The position numbers and the translations under genes were made by a program. DNA of 64,000 bases from Aquiflexum gelatinilyticum (GTDB lineage: Bacteria; Bacteroidota; Bacteroidia; Cytophagales; Cyclobacteriaceae). Location of the stretch: the NCBI RefSeq assembly GCF_024741135.1, contig NZ_JANSUY010000002.1:62001-126000 (forward strand). The letters are read 5' to 3'. Below are positions 6,524 through 11,905 of the stretch, in pieces. Position 1 is the stretch's first letter. The number at the start of each line of letters is the position of its first letter. The notes beneath the pieces were generated by a model that was given only the letters and a program-made list of their open reading frames with translations, made no database searches and was not told where the DNA came from.

Positions 6524-6556
6524 TTATCTGTGTCCATCTGTGAAATCTGTGGTTAA
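6524..6556 (-). repeat. Dispersed ACCACAGATTTCACAG-type repeat inside the thrC 3' end
   Basis: Read on the minus strand the segment runs TTAACCACAGATTTCACAG then ATGGACACAGATAA. This text is familiar as a short intergenic repeat in many bacterial genomes (recalled, not searched). It encodes the last ten residues of ThrC (LTTDFTDGHR) and supplies its stop codon. A weaker AACCACGGATTT match occurs at 61182-61193. Confidence 0.5.
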
Positions 6557-7843
6557 AAAACTCTTAAACTCTTGAAAGCTATTGCCCATCTCCAAAACTT
6601 GCTTTTTGCCTTTCATAAAGGCCATCAATCTCTCAGGGATAGGCAAGTCAATACCCAAAGTTTCATCGACCACGGATTTGAATTTAGCAGGATGGGCGGT
6701 TTCCAAGAAAATGCCGACATATTCACCAGGATTCATTTTCATGTAATTCCTCAATCCCAAATAGCCCACAGCACCATGTGGATCCATGATATATCCCGTT
6801 TCTTCCTTGATTTGGACCATGGCTTTTTGGGTATCCACGTCATCAAAATAGAAGCCTTTTACTTTCTCCCGAAACAACTTTTCATCATTGCCATACAGTG
6901 CCAAAAGCCTGTTAAAGTTACTTGGATTACCGACATCCATGCTGTTACTGATGGTGGCAACTGAAGGCTTGGATTGAAATGGGTTTCCCTCCAAAAAATC
7001 GGGGACAACCCGGTTCACATTGGTAGAAGCGATAAATGTGTCTATCGGCAAACCCATTCTTTCAGCCAAAATCCCTGCTCCGAGATTTCCAAAATTCCCA
7101 CTTGGAACGGAGATAGCTAATTTTTTATTGTTCTTTGGAAGTCGGGAAAAGGCATAGAAATAATACAGACACTGTGGAATCCACCTAGCCACATTGATGG
7201 AATTGGCGGAAGTTAGGAGCATTTTTTGGTTGAGTTCGACATCGGAAAAGGCCTGTTTGACCAAAGTCTGACAGTCATCAAATACACCATCCACCTCAAG
7301 GGCGGTCACGTTTTCTCCCAAGGTGGTAAACTGCATTTCCTGCAATTTGCTCACTTTCCCTTTTGGATACAGGACAATGACCTCAACTCCATTTACTTTA
7401 AAAAATCCATTGGCAACAGCACTTCCCGTATCCCCAGATGTCGCCACCAAAACTCGGATTTTCCTTTCTTCCCCTTCCATCAGGATTGCCATCAACTTGG
7501 AGCAAAACCTCGCCCCAAAATCCTTGAATGCCAATGTCGGTCCGTGAAACAATTCCAATGCGTATACATCCTCCTCCACTTTTACCAATGGCGCATCAAA
7601 AGCCAAGGTATGGTCAACCAATTCTTTGATCTGATCCCTGGTCAAATCACCAATGAATAGTGCTCCGATCACTTCAAATCCGATTTCCCGGAAAGACATT
7701 TTCGGCAAGTTCTCAAAGAACTCCTTTGGCAAAACCGGAATTTCCGTAGGCATATACAATCCCTGATCCGGAGCAAGTCCTTTGACCACGGCATCTTTGA
7801 GGCTGACTATATGGTTGGGGTTGTTGGTGCTGTAGAAGTGCAT
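6524..7843 (-). CDS. thrC: Threonine synthase
   Basis: Forms L-threonine from O-phospho-L-homoserine with pyridoxal phosphate. The start MHFYSTNNPNHIVSLKDAV is typical. The PLP lysine is K107 in GPTLAFKDFGARF. The phosphate-binding region includes LVATSGDTGSAVANGF and VPSGNFGNLGAGI. At 439 aa it has normal length, but the last ten residues come from a dispersed repeat, so the original C-terminus was probably replaced or extended. It is the last gene of the thrA-thrB-thrC set, separated from thrB by 267 bases of repeat-rich DNA. Confidence 0.95.
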   Translation of the reverse strand: MHFYSTNNPNHIVSLKDAVVKGLAPDQGLYMPTEIPVLPKEFFENLPKMSFREIGFEVIGALFIGDLTRDQIKELVDHTLAFDAPLVKVEEDVYALELFHGPTLAFKDFGARFCSKLMAILMEGEERKIRVLVATSGDTGSAVANGFFKVNGVEVIVLYPKGKVSKLQEMQFTTLGENVTALEVDGVFDDCQTLVKQAFSDVELNQKMLLTSANSINVARWIPQCLYYFYAFSRLPKNNKKLAISVPSGNFGNLGAGILAERMGLPIDTFIASTNVNRVVPDFLEGNPFQSKPSVATISNSMDVGNPSNFNRLLALYGNDEKLFREKVKGFYFDDVDTQKAMVQIKEETGYIMDPHGAVGYLGLRNYMKMNPGEYVGIFLETAHPAKFKSVVDETLGIDLPIPERLMAFMKGKKQVLEMGNSFQEFKSFLTTDFTDGHR

Positions 7844-8063: not shown

Positions 8064-8123
8064 CTCTCGTTTCTCGCTTCTCGCATCTCGCTTCTTGATA
8101 CTTGATACTTTTATCTTGATACT
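8064..8123. repeat. TTCTCGC/CTTGATACT short satellites running into thrB
   Basis: Degenerate tandem TCTCGC units (about 8064-8092) are followed by CTTGATACT at 8094-8102, 8101-8109 and 8115-8123. The third copy lies inside the thrB coding region and supplies its final codons and stop. Confidence 0.6.
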
Positions 8124-9046
8124 ATGAATGCTCCCCGCTTATTCACTTCCGAGACATACACATCGACACCAAGGCCGATTTTTTGGAATACTTCTTTGGC
8201 TTTTTCACCTGCCTCATGTGCGATGTCACCATTTGGAGAAAGGACAAATATGGTCGGTCCTGAACCTGATATTCCCGAGCCCAAAGACCCGATGGACTTG
8301 ATTGCATCCCGCAATTCATAAAATCCCGGAATCAGCAATGCACGGGAAGGCTCTGCGATGACATCTTTCAATGACCTGCTGAGCAAAGCCAAGTCTGACT
8401 TATACAATGCCGCTATAAACCCGGCAATATTTCCTGATTGCATCACGGACTCTTTTAAAGAAATCTGTTTGCGCAGTACACTTCTCGAATCGGATGTTTT
8501 CAATTCAATATGGGGATGTACCAAGGTACAGAAAATGCCTTCGGGAACCGGAAGCTTCACCATATCCAATGGATCATAATCCCTGATCAACACAAAACCT
8601 CCCAAAATAGAAGGTGCAACATTGTCCGCATGGGCCGAACCGCAAGCGATCCGCTCTGATTCCATTGCAAATGGAACCAACTCTTCTTTGGTAAATGGAT
8701 TGCCCAAAAGCACATTCGCAGCTTCCAATGCCGCTGCAGCACTTGCAGCCGAGGAACCCATTCCTGAACCAAGCGGCAATCCTTTTTCAAGGAAAATATC
8801 AATGCCTTGCTTCGAACCCAATTTGTTGAGCATGGCCTGAATGGCTACAGAACAGGTATTCTTCTCCGGTTCCAAAGGAAGTTTTCCTTCATCCCCTTCG
8901 ATTCCTGTTACTCTCAATATCCCCTCCTGATTGAATGAAACCGACACCTTGTCGCCCAATCTATCGATGGCAAATCCCAGGATATCAAATCCGCAGGACA
9001 CATTGGCGACAGTTGCCGGGGCGAAAGCAGTTACGGATTGTCCCAT
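8111..9046 (-). CDS. thrB: Homoserine kinase
   Basis: Phosphorylates L-homoserine for threonine synthase. It is a GHMP kinase: the glycine/serine-rich ATP loop PLGSGMGSSAASAAAAL lies at about residues 90-106, and the C-terminal GSGISGSGPTIFVL motif at about 260-275. The start MGQSVTAFAPATVANVSCGF is typical, and at 311 aa it is full length. Its ATG overlaps the thrA stop as TAATG, so translation is probably coupled. The last residues (IVSR) and the stop come from a CTTGATACT repeat. Confidence 0.95.
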   Translation of the reverse strand: MGQSVTAFAPATVANVSCGFDILGFAIDRLGDKVSVSFNQEGILRVTGIEGDEGKLPLEPEKNTCSVAIQAMLNKLGSKQGIDIFLEKGLPLGSGMGSSAASAAAALEAANVLLGNPFTKEELVPFAMESERIACGSAHADNVAPSILGGFVLIRDYDPLDMVKLPVPEGIFCTLVHPHIELKTSDSRSVLRKQISLKESVMQSGNIAGFIAALYKSDLALLSRSLKDVIAEPSRALLIPGFYELRDAIKSIGSLGSGISGSGPTIFVLSPNGDIAHEAGEKAKEVFQKIGLGVDVYVSEVNKRGAFIVSR

Positions 9047-11499
9047 TATCTGGAGAAATTACCCAACCGTATCACATCTGCAAATACACCGGCGGCTGTC
9101 ACATCTGCACCTGCACCCGGACCTCTGATGATCATCGGGAAGTCATGGTAGCGCTCTGTGGTAAACAAGATCATATTGTCAGATCCTTTCAAAGTATAAA
9201 AAGGATGCGTGCTGTCAAGAGAATTCAAACCCACTTTTGCTTTGCCGTTTTCCAAAGTTGCCATAAACCTGAGCTTCTCACCTTTGGATTTGGCGGTTTC
9301 CAGCATTTGGGCAAACTCACCATCGTGCGCTTGAAGTTTGACAAAAAACTCGTCTATTGAGGCTGTTTCCCTGCAATCTTCCGGTACCATACTTTGAATA
9401 GTAATATCTTCAAAGTGTAAGTCCTGCTCGGCTTCCCTTCCCAAAATCAGGATTTTTCTACCCACATCCATGCCACTCAAATCATCCCTTGGATCCGGTT
9501 CGGTATAGCCTTTTTCCTTGGCAACTTTGACCACTTCCGAAAAAGGCGCTCCTTTTTCCAATTCGCTGAAAATATAATTCATCGATCCGCTCAGCACTGC
9601 TTCTATCCGCAACACCTTGTCTCCGCTCAGCATGAGGTCCTGAAGGGTGTTGATGACCGGAAGGCCTGCAGCCACGTTGGTTTCATAGAGAAACTTCACT
9701 CCCCGCTTGTAAGCGAGTTTTTTCAAGGATTTGTAATTCTCCAATGAACCTGAGTTGGCTTTTTTGTTTGGAGTGACAATGGCTACTTTGGCTTCCAAAA
9801 CCTGTTCGTAAGTATCTGCCACTTCCTGACTTGCAGTACAATCCACAAAAACCGTGTTGGAGAAGTTCATGTCCTCCATCTGTTTGATGAACTTCTGCAA
9901 ATCCATTGGCTGTGCACCTTTGGCGTCTTCAGGTGCAGGGCAATTAGCCAGGTCAAAACCATCTTCATGGAAAGCCATGAATCTTGAATTGGCAATGCCG
10001 TGGATCTGCACATCCAAATCGTTTTCTTTTTGAAGTTTCTTTCTTTGCAGGGAAATCATCTTGATCAAAGCCTTTCCTATCAATCCAACTCCCACCAAAA
10101 AGACGTGCAACACTTTGTTTTCTGAAAGGAAAAATGCCTCATGGAGCGCGTTAAGGGCTTTTTGAAGGTCAGCTTGGGAGACTACCGCAGAGATATTCAA
10201 TTCTGAGCTTCCCTGAGCAATGGCGTATACGTTGACATTGTTTCTGCCCAAAGCCATAAACATCCTGCCACTCGCACCGGGATTGTGTTTCATGTTTTCT
10301 CCCACTGCCGCTACTACCGCCATCTCAGAAACCACCACAACAGGATCCATTTCCCCGTTTCGGATTTCATTGATAAATTCCTTTTCTATTCCTTCTTTGG
10401 CCAAAGCCACTTCATTGGTTTTGATCGCTACGCAAATGCTATGTTCGGAAGAAGCCTGACTGATCAAAATAATATTGACTCCTGCGTCTGCCAAAGCCCC
10501 AAAAACCCTCCTGCTTACGCCTACCACCTCCATCAACCCCGCTCCCTGAATATTCAAAAGCGATATTCCTGCCAAAGAAGAAATCCCCTTGATCAGTTTT
10601 CCGGTTGGCGCGTCACTGTTGATCAGGGTTCCAGGATGCTCTGGTTCAAAGGTATTTTTGATATAAATCGGAATTCCCTTGCGCATCGCAGGTTGCATGG
10701 TAGCCGGAAAAATCACTTTAGCCCCAAAGTGGGAAAGCTCCATGGCCTCGTTGTACGTCAACTGTGGAATAGTGAAAGCGGAATATACGAGCCTTGGATC
10801 CGAAGTCATCACGCCGGACACATCTGTCCAAATCTCCAATGTATCTGCAGTAAGCGCTGAGGCAAAAATCGCAGCAGTATAGTCCGAGCCACTTCTGCCT
10901 AGCGTGGTGGTTTCGCCTTTTTCGGTTGAGGCCACAAAGCCAGTGATGATTTTCATCCCGGGATGGGAATGAAAGTAATCCTGAATTAAGTCATTGGTGA
11001 CCGGAAAATCCACCTTGGCATTCCCAAAGCGGTTATTGGTACGGATGACCTCTCTTGCATCAAGGTAGTGGGTATTCAAACCTTCGACTTTCAAGGCTTC
11101 TGCCAAAACAAAAGCCGACAGCCTTTCGCCAAAACTCCCCACATAATCCAAAGTCTTTGGAGAACATTCTTTGATCAGGTAAATACCGTGGAAAAGGTCC
11201 TCCAATTCATTGAAGCGAACTTTGACGTAAGTCAGGACTGTGGATTGCTGCTGAATTGGTATCAGTTGCCTGACCAAATCATAATGCCTGTCTTCCAAAA
11301 CCTTGATCTCATCGGTGTAGGATTTGTCACCTTCGCGGGCCTTGACCGCACTGCGGAGCAAAACTTCCGTGACGCCTCCCAATGCAGAAAAAACAACTGC
11401 AATTTCATCCTTTTTGGCCTGTTTCTTAATGATCTGAAACACCTTCCGGATATTTTCCTGATTGGCTACTGACGATCCTCCGAATTTTAAGATTTTCAT
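9046..11499 (-). CDS. thrA: Bifunctional aspartokinase / homoserine dehydrogenase
   Basis: Catalyses the first and third steps from aspartate to threonine. The N-terminal aspartokinase domain begins MKILKFGGSSVANQENI and includes TTLGRSGSDYTAAIFA (about residues 205-220). Two ACT regulatory repeats follow (about 310-460; GLMEVVGVSRRVFGAL and MKHNPGASGRMF). The homoserine dehydrogenase half begins VFLVGVGLIGKAL (about 465), with VTPNKKANSG and ETNVAAGLPVINTL downstream. At 817 aa it matches ThrA/MetL enzymes. The ACT domains suggest feedback by threonine. A Thr-codon leader lies upstream at 11595-11627, giving a second level of control. Confidence 0.95.
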   Translation of the reverse strand: MKILKFGGSSVANQENIRKVFQIIKKQAKKDEIAVVFSALGGVTEVLLRSAVKAREGDKSYTDEIKVLEDRHYDLVRQLIPIQQQSTVLTYVKVRFNELEDLFHGIYLIKECSPKTLDYVGSFGERLSAFVLAEALKVEGLNTHYLDAREVIRTNNRFGNAKVDFPVTNDLIQDYFHSHPGMKIITGFVASTEKGETTTLGRSGSDYTAAIFASALTADTLEIWTDVSGVMTSDPRLVYSAFTIPQLTYNEAMELSHFGAKVIFPATMQPAMRKGIPIYIKNTFEPEHPGTLINSDAPTGKLIKGISSLAGISLLNIQGAGLMEVVGVSRRVFGALADAGVNIILISQASSEHSICVAIKTNEVALAKEGIEKEFINEIRNGEMDPVVVVSEMAVVAAVGENMKHNPGASGRMFMALGRNNVNVYAIAQGSSELNISAVVSQADLQKALNALHEAFFLSENKVLHVFLVGVGLIGKALIKMISLQRKKLQKENDLDVQIHGIANSRFMAFHEDGFDLANCPAPEDAKGAQPMDLQKFIKQMEDMNFSNTVFVDCTASQEVADTYEQVLEAKVAIVTPNKKANSGSLENYKSLKKLAYKRGVKFLYETNVAAGLPVINTLQDLMLSGDKVLRIEAVLSGSMNYIFSELEKGAPFSEVVKVAKEKGYTEPDPRDDLSGMDVGRKILILGREAEQDLHFEDITIQSMVPEDCRETASIDEFFVKLQAHDGEFAQMLETAKSKGEKLRFMATLENGKAKVGLNSLDSTHPFYTLKGSDNMILFTTERYHDFPMIIRGPGAGADVTAAGVFADVIRLGNFSR

Positions 11500-11541
11500 A
11501 AAAATGAATTTTTTGATTTTGGCGTATATAATATGCTGTTG

Positions 11542-11558
11542 AGGTCCAAAATGGACCT
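11542..11558 (-). promoter_or_regulatory. Leader hairpin AGGTCC/GGACCT before thrA
   Basis: A perfect 6-bp stem with a 5-base loop lies 37 bases downstream (minus strand) of the leader-peptide stop and 43 bases before the thrA start. No T-run follows directly, so it may be an antiterminator or pause hairpin rather than the terminator itself. Confidence 0.4.
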
Positions 11559-11587
11559 AAAGATAAGGGGTCTATATGGATTTGAAA

Positions 11588-11603
11588 ACGGGAATTAACC
11601 CGT
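11588..11603 (-). promoter_or_regulatory. Hairpin overlapping the thr leader stop codon
   Basis: ACGGG pairs with CCCGT around TTAATT. The leader-peptide stop TAA lies in the loop, and TTTTC follows the stem. A ribosome stalled on the Thr codons would keep this stem open, as expected for an attenuator, although the stem is short. Confidence 0.4.
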
Positions 11604-11627
11604 AATGGTGGTGGTGGTAAAAAACAT
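11595..11627 (-). CDS. Putative thr operon leader peptide MFFTTTTITG
   Basis: An 11-codon frame (ATG at 11625-11627, TAA at 11595-11597) encodes MFFTTTTITG: five Thr and one Ile codon out of ten, four of the Thr codons consecutive. It lies 95 bases upstream of thrA on the same strand. This is the hallmark of a transcription-attenuation leader, as in E. coli thrL, where Thr and Ile codons sense charged tRNA. The similarity is in design, not in sequence. Hairpins follow at 11588-11603 and 11542-11558. The chance of four Thr codons here by accident is small but not computed. Confidence 0.65.
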   Translation of the reverse strand: MFFTTTTITG

Positions 11628-11701
11628 GGAGGTACATCCACCCAAAACACAGCTGTCTCCTGCAAGGGAGAGGTTCAAATTGATGAGTTCATTTGCTGTG
11701 A

Positions 11702-11732
11702 AAAACATAGAATGCTTTTTTTGATGCGGCAA
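11702..11732 (-). promoter_or_regulatory. Candidate promoter of the thr leader-thrABC transcript
   Basis: On the minus strand TTG (11730-11732) is followed after 20 bases by TATGTTTT (11702-11709), matching TAnnTTTG at 7 of 8 positions. This would start the transcript about 65-70 bases before the leader peptide. The remainder of the gap (11733-11905) shows no gene. Confidence 0.35.
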
Positions 11733-11905
11733 TCTTAAGGACAATTTCCCGAAATGCAAAAATGTTTTGTTGTTATTTTAAAGAATTGAGACTTTTATTA
11801 CCATTTTATCAGTCAAAATGAAAAAATCTTAATATAAATTTAACCATAAAGCCAGAATAATATTTGGAAAAGGAAAACAGCTAGGTCTGCAGGTAAGCGC
11901 TATTT

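Follow-up and report, generated by a model that had tools for sequence, protein, structure and literature searches.

Textbook accounts of attenuation at amino acid operons derive from work on enteric bacteria. In the enteric thr attenuator, thrL, a leader peptide carries Thr and Ile codons and ribosome stalling acts as the sensor. An attenuator study by Vitreschak et al. in FEMS, 2004, is said to have covered Bacteroidetes/Chlorobi. The Rfam family RF01692 (Bacteroid-trp) is an amino acid leader in Bacteroidetes (Weinberg 2010, PMC2864571). Strong clues for leader peptide attenuation before amino acid operons have been presented for Flavobacterium psychrophilum, along with structured elements of Flavobacteriaceae that match no Rfam family, e.g. 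5' of hisG; the passage of that report on these elements names neither thrA nor a hairpin over a stop codon (PMC9723704). With RF01692, the F. psychrophilum clues, and the 2004 study, attenuation by leader peptides as such has precedents in Bacteroidota. No description of a thr leader with its stop codon in a hairpin loop was found in the openly licensed literature searched.

Such a leader lies 5' of thrABC in a 64,000-nucleotide stretch of DNA from Aquiflexum gelatinilyticum, here called the window. It resembles enteric thrL (RF00506, Thr_leader) in its Thr/Ile leader peptide directly 5' of thrABC and in its presumed stalling sensor, but it has no U-tract terminator and possesses a conserved CATAT..CC box. 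With RF01692 it shares the character of an amino acid leader in Bacteroidetes, whereas that family belongs to trp, and most trp leaders analyzed here run into strong hairpins with U-tracts. RF00506 and RF01692 were absent from the window at the gathering threshold and from positions 11400-11900 at E ≤ 10, and no other Rfam family matched the thr leader.

The thrABC locus and its relatives

All features described below lie on the minus strand. thrA (9046-11499) encodes a fused aspartate kinase-homoserine dehydrogenase with ACT domains (Pfam PF00696, PF22468, PF03447, and PF00742), thrB (8111-9046) a GHMP kinase (PF00288, PF08544) named homoserine kinase from its operon context, and thrC (6524-7843) threonine synthase (PF14821, PF00291). 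A preliminary description of this DNA had proposed, 5' of thrABC, a leader peptide with Thr and Ile codons whose stop lies in a hairpin, and ACT domains in the operon; the Pfam matches (AA_kinase, ACT, and homoserine dehydrogenase domains) agree with it, and the leader proved to be kept across relatives. The leader stop is separated from thrA by 95 nt.

A ThrA scan of genome contigs yielded 80 loci from named species and MAGs, mostly Cyclobacteriaceae, with Cognataquiflexum nearest. One locus lacking a thrA 5' end (L077) was dropped, leaving 80 upstream regions, the window and 79 others. A short frame with codons for the product amino acid, as in ribosome-mediated attenuation leaders, was present in 77 of the 80, beyond what chance would give, ending in each case in AC-N-GG-N-stop; these leader-bearing sequences were split into 62 close and 15 far, and removal of identical stretches gives n = 56-62 for the close thr group. 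That leader end was not found in the remaining three regions (L074, L080, and L081), of which L074 is an exception only in part, because the RNA model still matches it. Covariance model R1 was too poor for distant searches: six of 392 genomes matched at E ≤ 0.05, four of them in the window's own family, and among 18 loci it recovered L074 and two weak matches.

Promoter and leader reading frame

A candidate promoter of Bacteroidota type occupies 11760-11730, with TTTG (11760-11757), a spacer of 19 nt, and TAAGATTG (11737-11730). This assignment is based on TTTG/TAnnTTTG, which we take to be the Bacteroidota promoter consensus. All 62 close sequences score at least 8 of 10 against it, placing a candidate promoter 5' of the leader frame in each, as in attenuation leaders, and 84% score at least 9, vs. 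1.8% of shuffled upstream regions. In the close thr leaders TTTG lies 18-20 nt 5' of a TAnnTTTG-like box, and the ATG follows 15-22 nt 3' of the box. A promoter had earlier been put at 11702-11732, which was misplaced: that segment overlaps just the last bases of the conserved candidate and consists mostly of 5' UTR and leader start. A consensus scan of 11490-11800 revealed no promoter of the sigma-70 type.

The leader peptide frame, MFFTANELINLNLSLAGDSCVLGGCTSMFFTTTTITG, comprises 37 codons plus TAA (11595-11708), starting with the ATG at 11708 and ending with the stop codon at 11597-11595. An ATG frame of 35-41 codons is kept in 62/62 close sequences, the window included. The frame had first been read as one of 11 codons (MFFTTTTITG); this stretch does exist at 11627-11595, running from ATG through two TTT codons, ACC ACC ACC ACC ATT ACG, and GGT to TAA, but it is open upstream to the ATG at 11708, and the near-end in-frame ATG of the shorter version is absent from many of the 62 close sequences. 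The presumed regulatory codons are the six from the first ACC to ACG (11601-11618).

Enrichment of Thr codons is specific to the thr leaders. The last 15 codons hold on average 5.6 Thr in the 62 close and 5.1 in the 15 far sequences; the means for leaders of other operons are 0.5-0.85 (his), 1.0 (trp), and 0.7 (ilv). Conservation across the close leaders concerns the frame, its length, and the Thr/Ile end, the N-terminal part of the peptide being hardly constrained (synonymous/non-synonymous single-nucleotide codon differences of 382/381, 18/52, and 10/30 in three groups). The far sequences keep the Thr/Ile-rich end, and an ATG giving 24-60 codons occurs in just 5 of the 15.

The hairpin over the leader stop

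The stop codon lies in the loop of a hairpin, here termed A:B, ACGGG-UUAAUU-CCCGU (11588-11603), with a folding energy of -6.9 kcal/mol, which bears out an early proposal at these positions. A stop-loop stem was defined as at least five Watson-Crick pairs with the stop codon within a loop of 3-6 nt. By this definition it is present in 60/62 close thr leaders vs. 14/755 control stops, the latter belonging to long open reading frames of loci retrieved before this comparison, and in none of the 15 far thr leaders, whose stems have 2-4 bp. Corresponding figures are 1/29 for trp, 0/13 for ilv, and, for two his groups divided by eye and so not independent of this feature, 8/14 for hisII and 1/13 for hisI.

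It had been suggested that the stems be checked for covariation. Alignment A1 of the close group displayed none: RNAalifold finds A:B alone, with no compensatory pairs, because the stem is nearly invariant within this group; in other families the stem is inverted (see below). A search of the window's own genome with the exact A:B motif gave 14 matches at up to two mismatches, none of them a leader by eye, and 34 matches for the control.

Two further roles for the 5' arm or the stem were considered. Pairing of the leader-end GGGG (A) with the CCCC of the downstream box (C) is attractive as a conserved switch in Cyclobacteriaceae and is weak by eye in L008 and L022; it was rejected because A reads CCCC in the inverted-stem families. 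The stem is also comparable to the pause hairpins of E. coli hisL and trpL, being a small leader hairpin of similar stability; a value of -5.1 kcal/mol is given for hisL in part of one report (PMC9291695). Here, unlike in those leaders, the ATAT of the box begins 10-12 nt and the box G lies 16-18 nt past the stem (31 sequences), a loose fit to a pause hairpin of the E. coli his type; pausing is retained as an idea drawn from the sequence.

The box and hairpin downstream of the stop

Past the stop-loop hairpin lies the box CATATAGACCCC (11567-11578), also termed segment C. CATAT occurs at +16 to +29 from the stop in 27/56 close thr leaders, where shuffling leads to an expectation of 3%, and in 1/15 far thr, 1/29 trp, and 1/13 ilv leaders; hisII has it in 6/14 and hisI in 0/13, again counted in groups divided by eye. 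The CATAT..CC box often spans about +18 to +28, and the first CC triplet falls at +25 to +28 in 59/61 distinct close sequences. Of the close sequences, 21 lack ATA[TCG] in the box region; most of these come from Algoriphagus relatives and have GTACCCGCCC there or a stretch resembling it. Nor is the box restricted to leaders without a terminator: the trpE leader of the window's genome, which has one, also carries ACATATCG.

A second hairpin, D:E, AGGUCCAUUUUGGACCU, occupies 11542-11558 (-9.0 kcal/mol, z -3.3), as noted in the preliminary description, and no U-tract follows it. Hairpins beginning at +34 to +44 are present in 55/61 distinct close thr leaders, with a median of -5.6 kcal/mol and 3.1 U in the next 8 nt (background 2.8). 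A U-run of at least five follows the best hairpin in 5/61 close sequences, e.g. L031, L033, L056, and L078. The U-run of the window had been called weak, which understates the case: it is absent, and a consensus scan of 11490-11800 found no intrinsic terminator between the leader and thrA, in which respect the locus departs from attenuation leaders. In four Algoriphagus species (L038, L039, L040, and L055) about 90-110 extra nt with a common ATGAA(A/G)TC.AGCAT stretch separate D:E from thrA, possibly a repeat or mobile element.

A possible antiterminator-like pairing, C:D, joins GACC (11572-11569) with GGUC (11557-11554), within 11554-11572; at -3.3 kcal/mol it is, alone, no better than in shuffles. 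C:D pairs exclusive with D:E occur in 76% of 58 close thr leaders vs. 21% of shuffles, 64% of 14 hisII vs. 25%, 35% of 23 leaders from other families vs. 17%, and 66% of 29 trp vs. 36%; they are present in 7/7 loci of family f24 in this set and in 0/15 far thr leaders, and there is no signal in 15 loci of family f7. Equilibrium folding of 59 close sequences gave D:E a probability of 0.82-0.89 with the ribosome stalled, at the stop, or gone, and in the full leader the box had a probability of 0.11-0.13 of pairing with downstream RNA. Since D:E dominates in all three ribosome states, no thermodynamic ribosome-dependent switch is visible; a different hairpin pairing, as proposed in the preliminary description, may serve instead. 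The RNA past the stop has C/G contents of 0.28/0.14 in close thr, 0.28/0.08 in far thr, 0.22/0.08 in other-family, and 0.25/0.18 in hisII leaders, compared with 0.18/0.19 in trp and 0.18/0.13 in ilv leaders.

Leaders of the his, trp, and ilv operons

In the same genome and family, leaders of other operons use codons for the amino acid that their operon makes. Frames with at least three His precede hisG at 27/29 loci, frames with at least two Trp precede trpE at 30/30, and 15/26 ilvD loci pass a rule for Ile/Leu/Val. The last 15 codons contain on average 4.6-5.1 His in his and 2.5 Trp in trp leaders. For these comparisons 29 of 30 trp and 13 of 15 ilv leaders were kept; L112 and L116 were dropped for want of a His frame and L152, L158, and L176 as not convincing, and L182-L185, ilv loci without a match, and L212, L219, L220, and L221, which fall outside the 26-locus thrA set, were also left out.

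In the window's genome the trpE leader (WWWHW; G000, contig C1 near 760681, L099 1300-1455) and the ilvD leader (contig C17, L097), with its Ile/Val/Leu-rich end, are followed by strong hairpins and U-tracts. Medians for the best hairpin are -17.4 kcal/mol with 5.5 U in trp and -16.5 kcal/mol with 4.8 U in ilv leaders. In the ilv leader the strand over the stop (UGAGGCACU) is, by eye, complementary to the 5' arm of the terminator (AGUGCCUCA), a textbook arrangement. One trp leader (L140) matches RF01692 weakly, at E 0.57, below gathering.

The thrA and hisG leaders of this genome share a different design, consisting of a stop-loop hairpin, a CATAT box, and a hairpin without a U-tract. The hisG leader (G000, contig C1 near 215389, L096 1150-1347) reads MSRKTFYSVSFSIPTILCGVHHLHHSS, with UUCCUCC-UAA-GGAGGAA over the stop, and then ACATATCGCCC; folding of the L096 stretch was no better than that of shuffles. 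Two hisG upstream regions (L114, L118) and one thrA upstream region (L202) keep the hairpin with a loop codon other than a stop, the stop lying just past it.

Outside the family, a His-rich frame precedes hisG in 30/30 genomes and a stop-loop stem of at least 5 bp occurs in 4/30 (L253, L259, L269, and L276). By eye, 14 f7 loci have the terminator form and 11 f24 loci a pyrimidine-rich tract. The his version of the stop-loop form is not general, because of these few stems, the f7 terminators, and the f24 tracts. Most of the His-rich f24 leaders (L252-L257, L259, L277, and L279-L281) end in VH or VQ before the stop, after which comes a pyrimidine-rich, G-poor stretch without, by eye, a U-tract terminator; two have a 5-bp stop-loop stem. 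These leaders could represent a third, Rho-like form.

Threonine leaders in other families

For thrA in other families 36 genomes were sampled, including G245 and G328, which were earlier R1 matches. At four of the 26 thrA loci (L194, L198, L201, and L206, from families f7, f24, and f5) a Thr-rich frame ends in a stop enclosed by ACCCC-loop-GGGGU, a stem with its arms swapped relative to that of the window. L202 is a variant with the leader stop directly after the hairpin. L204 and L205 have a Thr/Ile leader and, past it, a terminator-like hairpin and T-run, L204 matching RF00506 weakly (E 0.0023, below gathering), and L193 and L203 have a weaker Thr frame. A simple scan found no convincing Thr leader at the other 17. 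The result that the preliminary description had named as refuting it, homologs with no Thr-rich frame, occurred in 3/80 upstream regions of the ThrA scan, L074 being a partial case.

A pattern search derived from the inverted-stem loci listed 40 places in 38/392 genomes. Because the reversed control also gave matches (18 in 15 genomes), a match was counted only when it had a Thr frame and a downstream thrA. Among 30 loci fetched from the matches, 23 have a Thr-rich frame with thrA directly downstream and 7 do not. The stem in 23/23 and the box in 22/23 of these follow by construction, because the pattern contains the stem and ATAT; the frequency in other families free of leader-based selection is 4/26 thrA loci, plus L202. 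Several genomes also contain ACCCCNTAGGGGT hairpins accompanied by neither a Thr frame nor thrA (L239, L241-L244), which look like other elements, because the pattern occurs twice in G041 and G167.

The thr version of the terminator-less form thereby extends to no fewer than four families of the phylum, three in addition to that of the window. The swapped stems of the other families possibly had an independent origin.

Proposed mechanism and alternatives

Sequence comparison establishes the Thr-codon peptide before thrABC as real and conserved, and the frame, its length, its Thr codons, the stop-loop stem, the box, the downstream hairpin, and the promoter match have the same footing. We consider it probable, at roughly 0.7, that this region is a transcribed thrABC leader and acts as a ribosome-read gauge of charged tRNA-Thr, in which closing of the stop-loop hairpin lowers expression. 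Ribosome stalling on the Thr codons is very likely the sensor, and tRNA-Ile is probably read as well.

Transcription from the candidate promoter at 11760-11730 would yield a short 5' UTR and the 37-codon peptide with Thr/Ile as its last codons. A shortage of charged tRNA-Thr would stall the ribosome at the Thr codons just before the stop. A ribosome occludes about 12 nt 3' of the codon that it is translating (PMC4833913). Stalled here, it would sit on the 5' arm of the stop-loop hairpin, which could not form until translation had terminated and the ribosome had been released; with the hairpin open, RNA polymerase would proceed into thrA. With threonine plentiful, the ribosome would reach the stop in the loop and leave, the hairpin would close, and fewer transcripts would extend into thrA or express it. 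Both D:E and the CATAT..CC box are probably part of the output step, which may be a weak terminator at D:E, Rho, or a polymerase halted at the box. Stalling, the sign of control, and the output step are our inference, and the exact step as proposed is doubtful.

Several other accounts of the leader compete with this one. The most skeptical, that the Thr-rich frame is coincidental low-complexity sequence and the hairpin unrelated to it, could draw on the poorly conserved N-terminal part of the peptide, but operon-specific codons, the frame and length kept in every close sequence, and the contrast between leader and control stops in the stop-loop stem make it barely credible and refute it as far as such comparisons can. 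Attenuation of the classical enteric type, with C:D as antiterminator, D:E as terminator with little or no U-tract, and the ribosome's position choosing between them, is an unlikely alternative. The excess of exclusive pairs in the close leaders and in f24 speaks for it, as do the five close sequences with a U-run and the textbook pairing with U-tracts seen by eye in the ilv and trp leaders of the same genomes. On the other hand, D:E of the window has no U-tract, C lies near +25, past the reach of a ribosome at the stop, and folding is independent of ribosome state; moreover, the exclusive-pair measure is also positive in trp, and it fails in the far thr leaders and in f7.

Premature termination by Rho (or another factor), gated by the leader ribosome, would suit an RNA that past the stop is C-rich, G-poor, and free of an intrinsic terminator, as well as the pyrimidine-rich RNA of the f24 hisG leaders. 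Yet with the ribosome stalled upstream the C-rich stretch would lie exposed, and control would be expected to have the wrong sign unless ribosome-polymerase coupling matters; this explanation appears quite unlikely. Post-transcriptional control, in which the mRNA is shielded or made accessible by the stalled ribosome or by the hairpins, or thrA translation is altered by them, and no premature termination takes place, accords with the missing terminator in the window, and the 95 nt before thrA leave room for effects on mRNA stability; however, D:E ends 42 nt 5' of the thrA start, leaving it uncovered, and the trp and ilv leaders of this genome look transcriptional, making this account improbable. 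The reading favored here remains that of a leader that gauges charged tRNA-Thr.

Judging from structural work, the distance between box and stop is about what would bring a ribosome at the stop into contact with a polymerase at the box. Speculatively, Bacteroidota may possess a distinct class of attenuator at thr and some his operons, with the stop in a hairpin loop, a CATAT..CC box at a nearly fixed distance, and an output that needs no intrinsic terminator. In such a class the ribosome at the stop may couple with a polymerase held at the box, and departure or stalling of the ribosome would decide whether the polymerase proceeds; we regard this generalization as rather unlikely.

Concluding remarks

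The thr leader is a small element outside the existing Rfam families. Its genome combines two forms of amino acid leader, the textbook one with U-tract terminators at trp and ilv and a second at thr and his, with a peptide sensor and no textbook terminator. Together they offer a natural pair for asking how Bacteroidota convert ribosome stalling into gene control.
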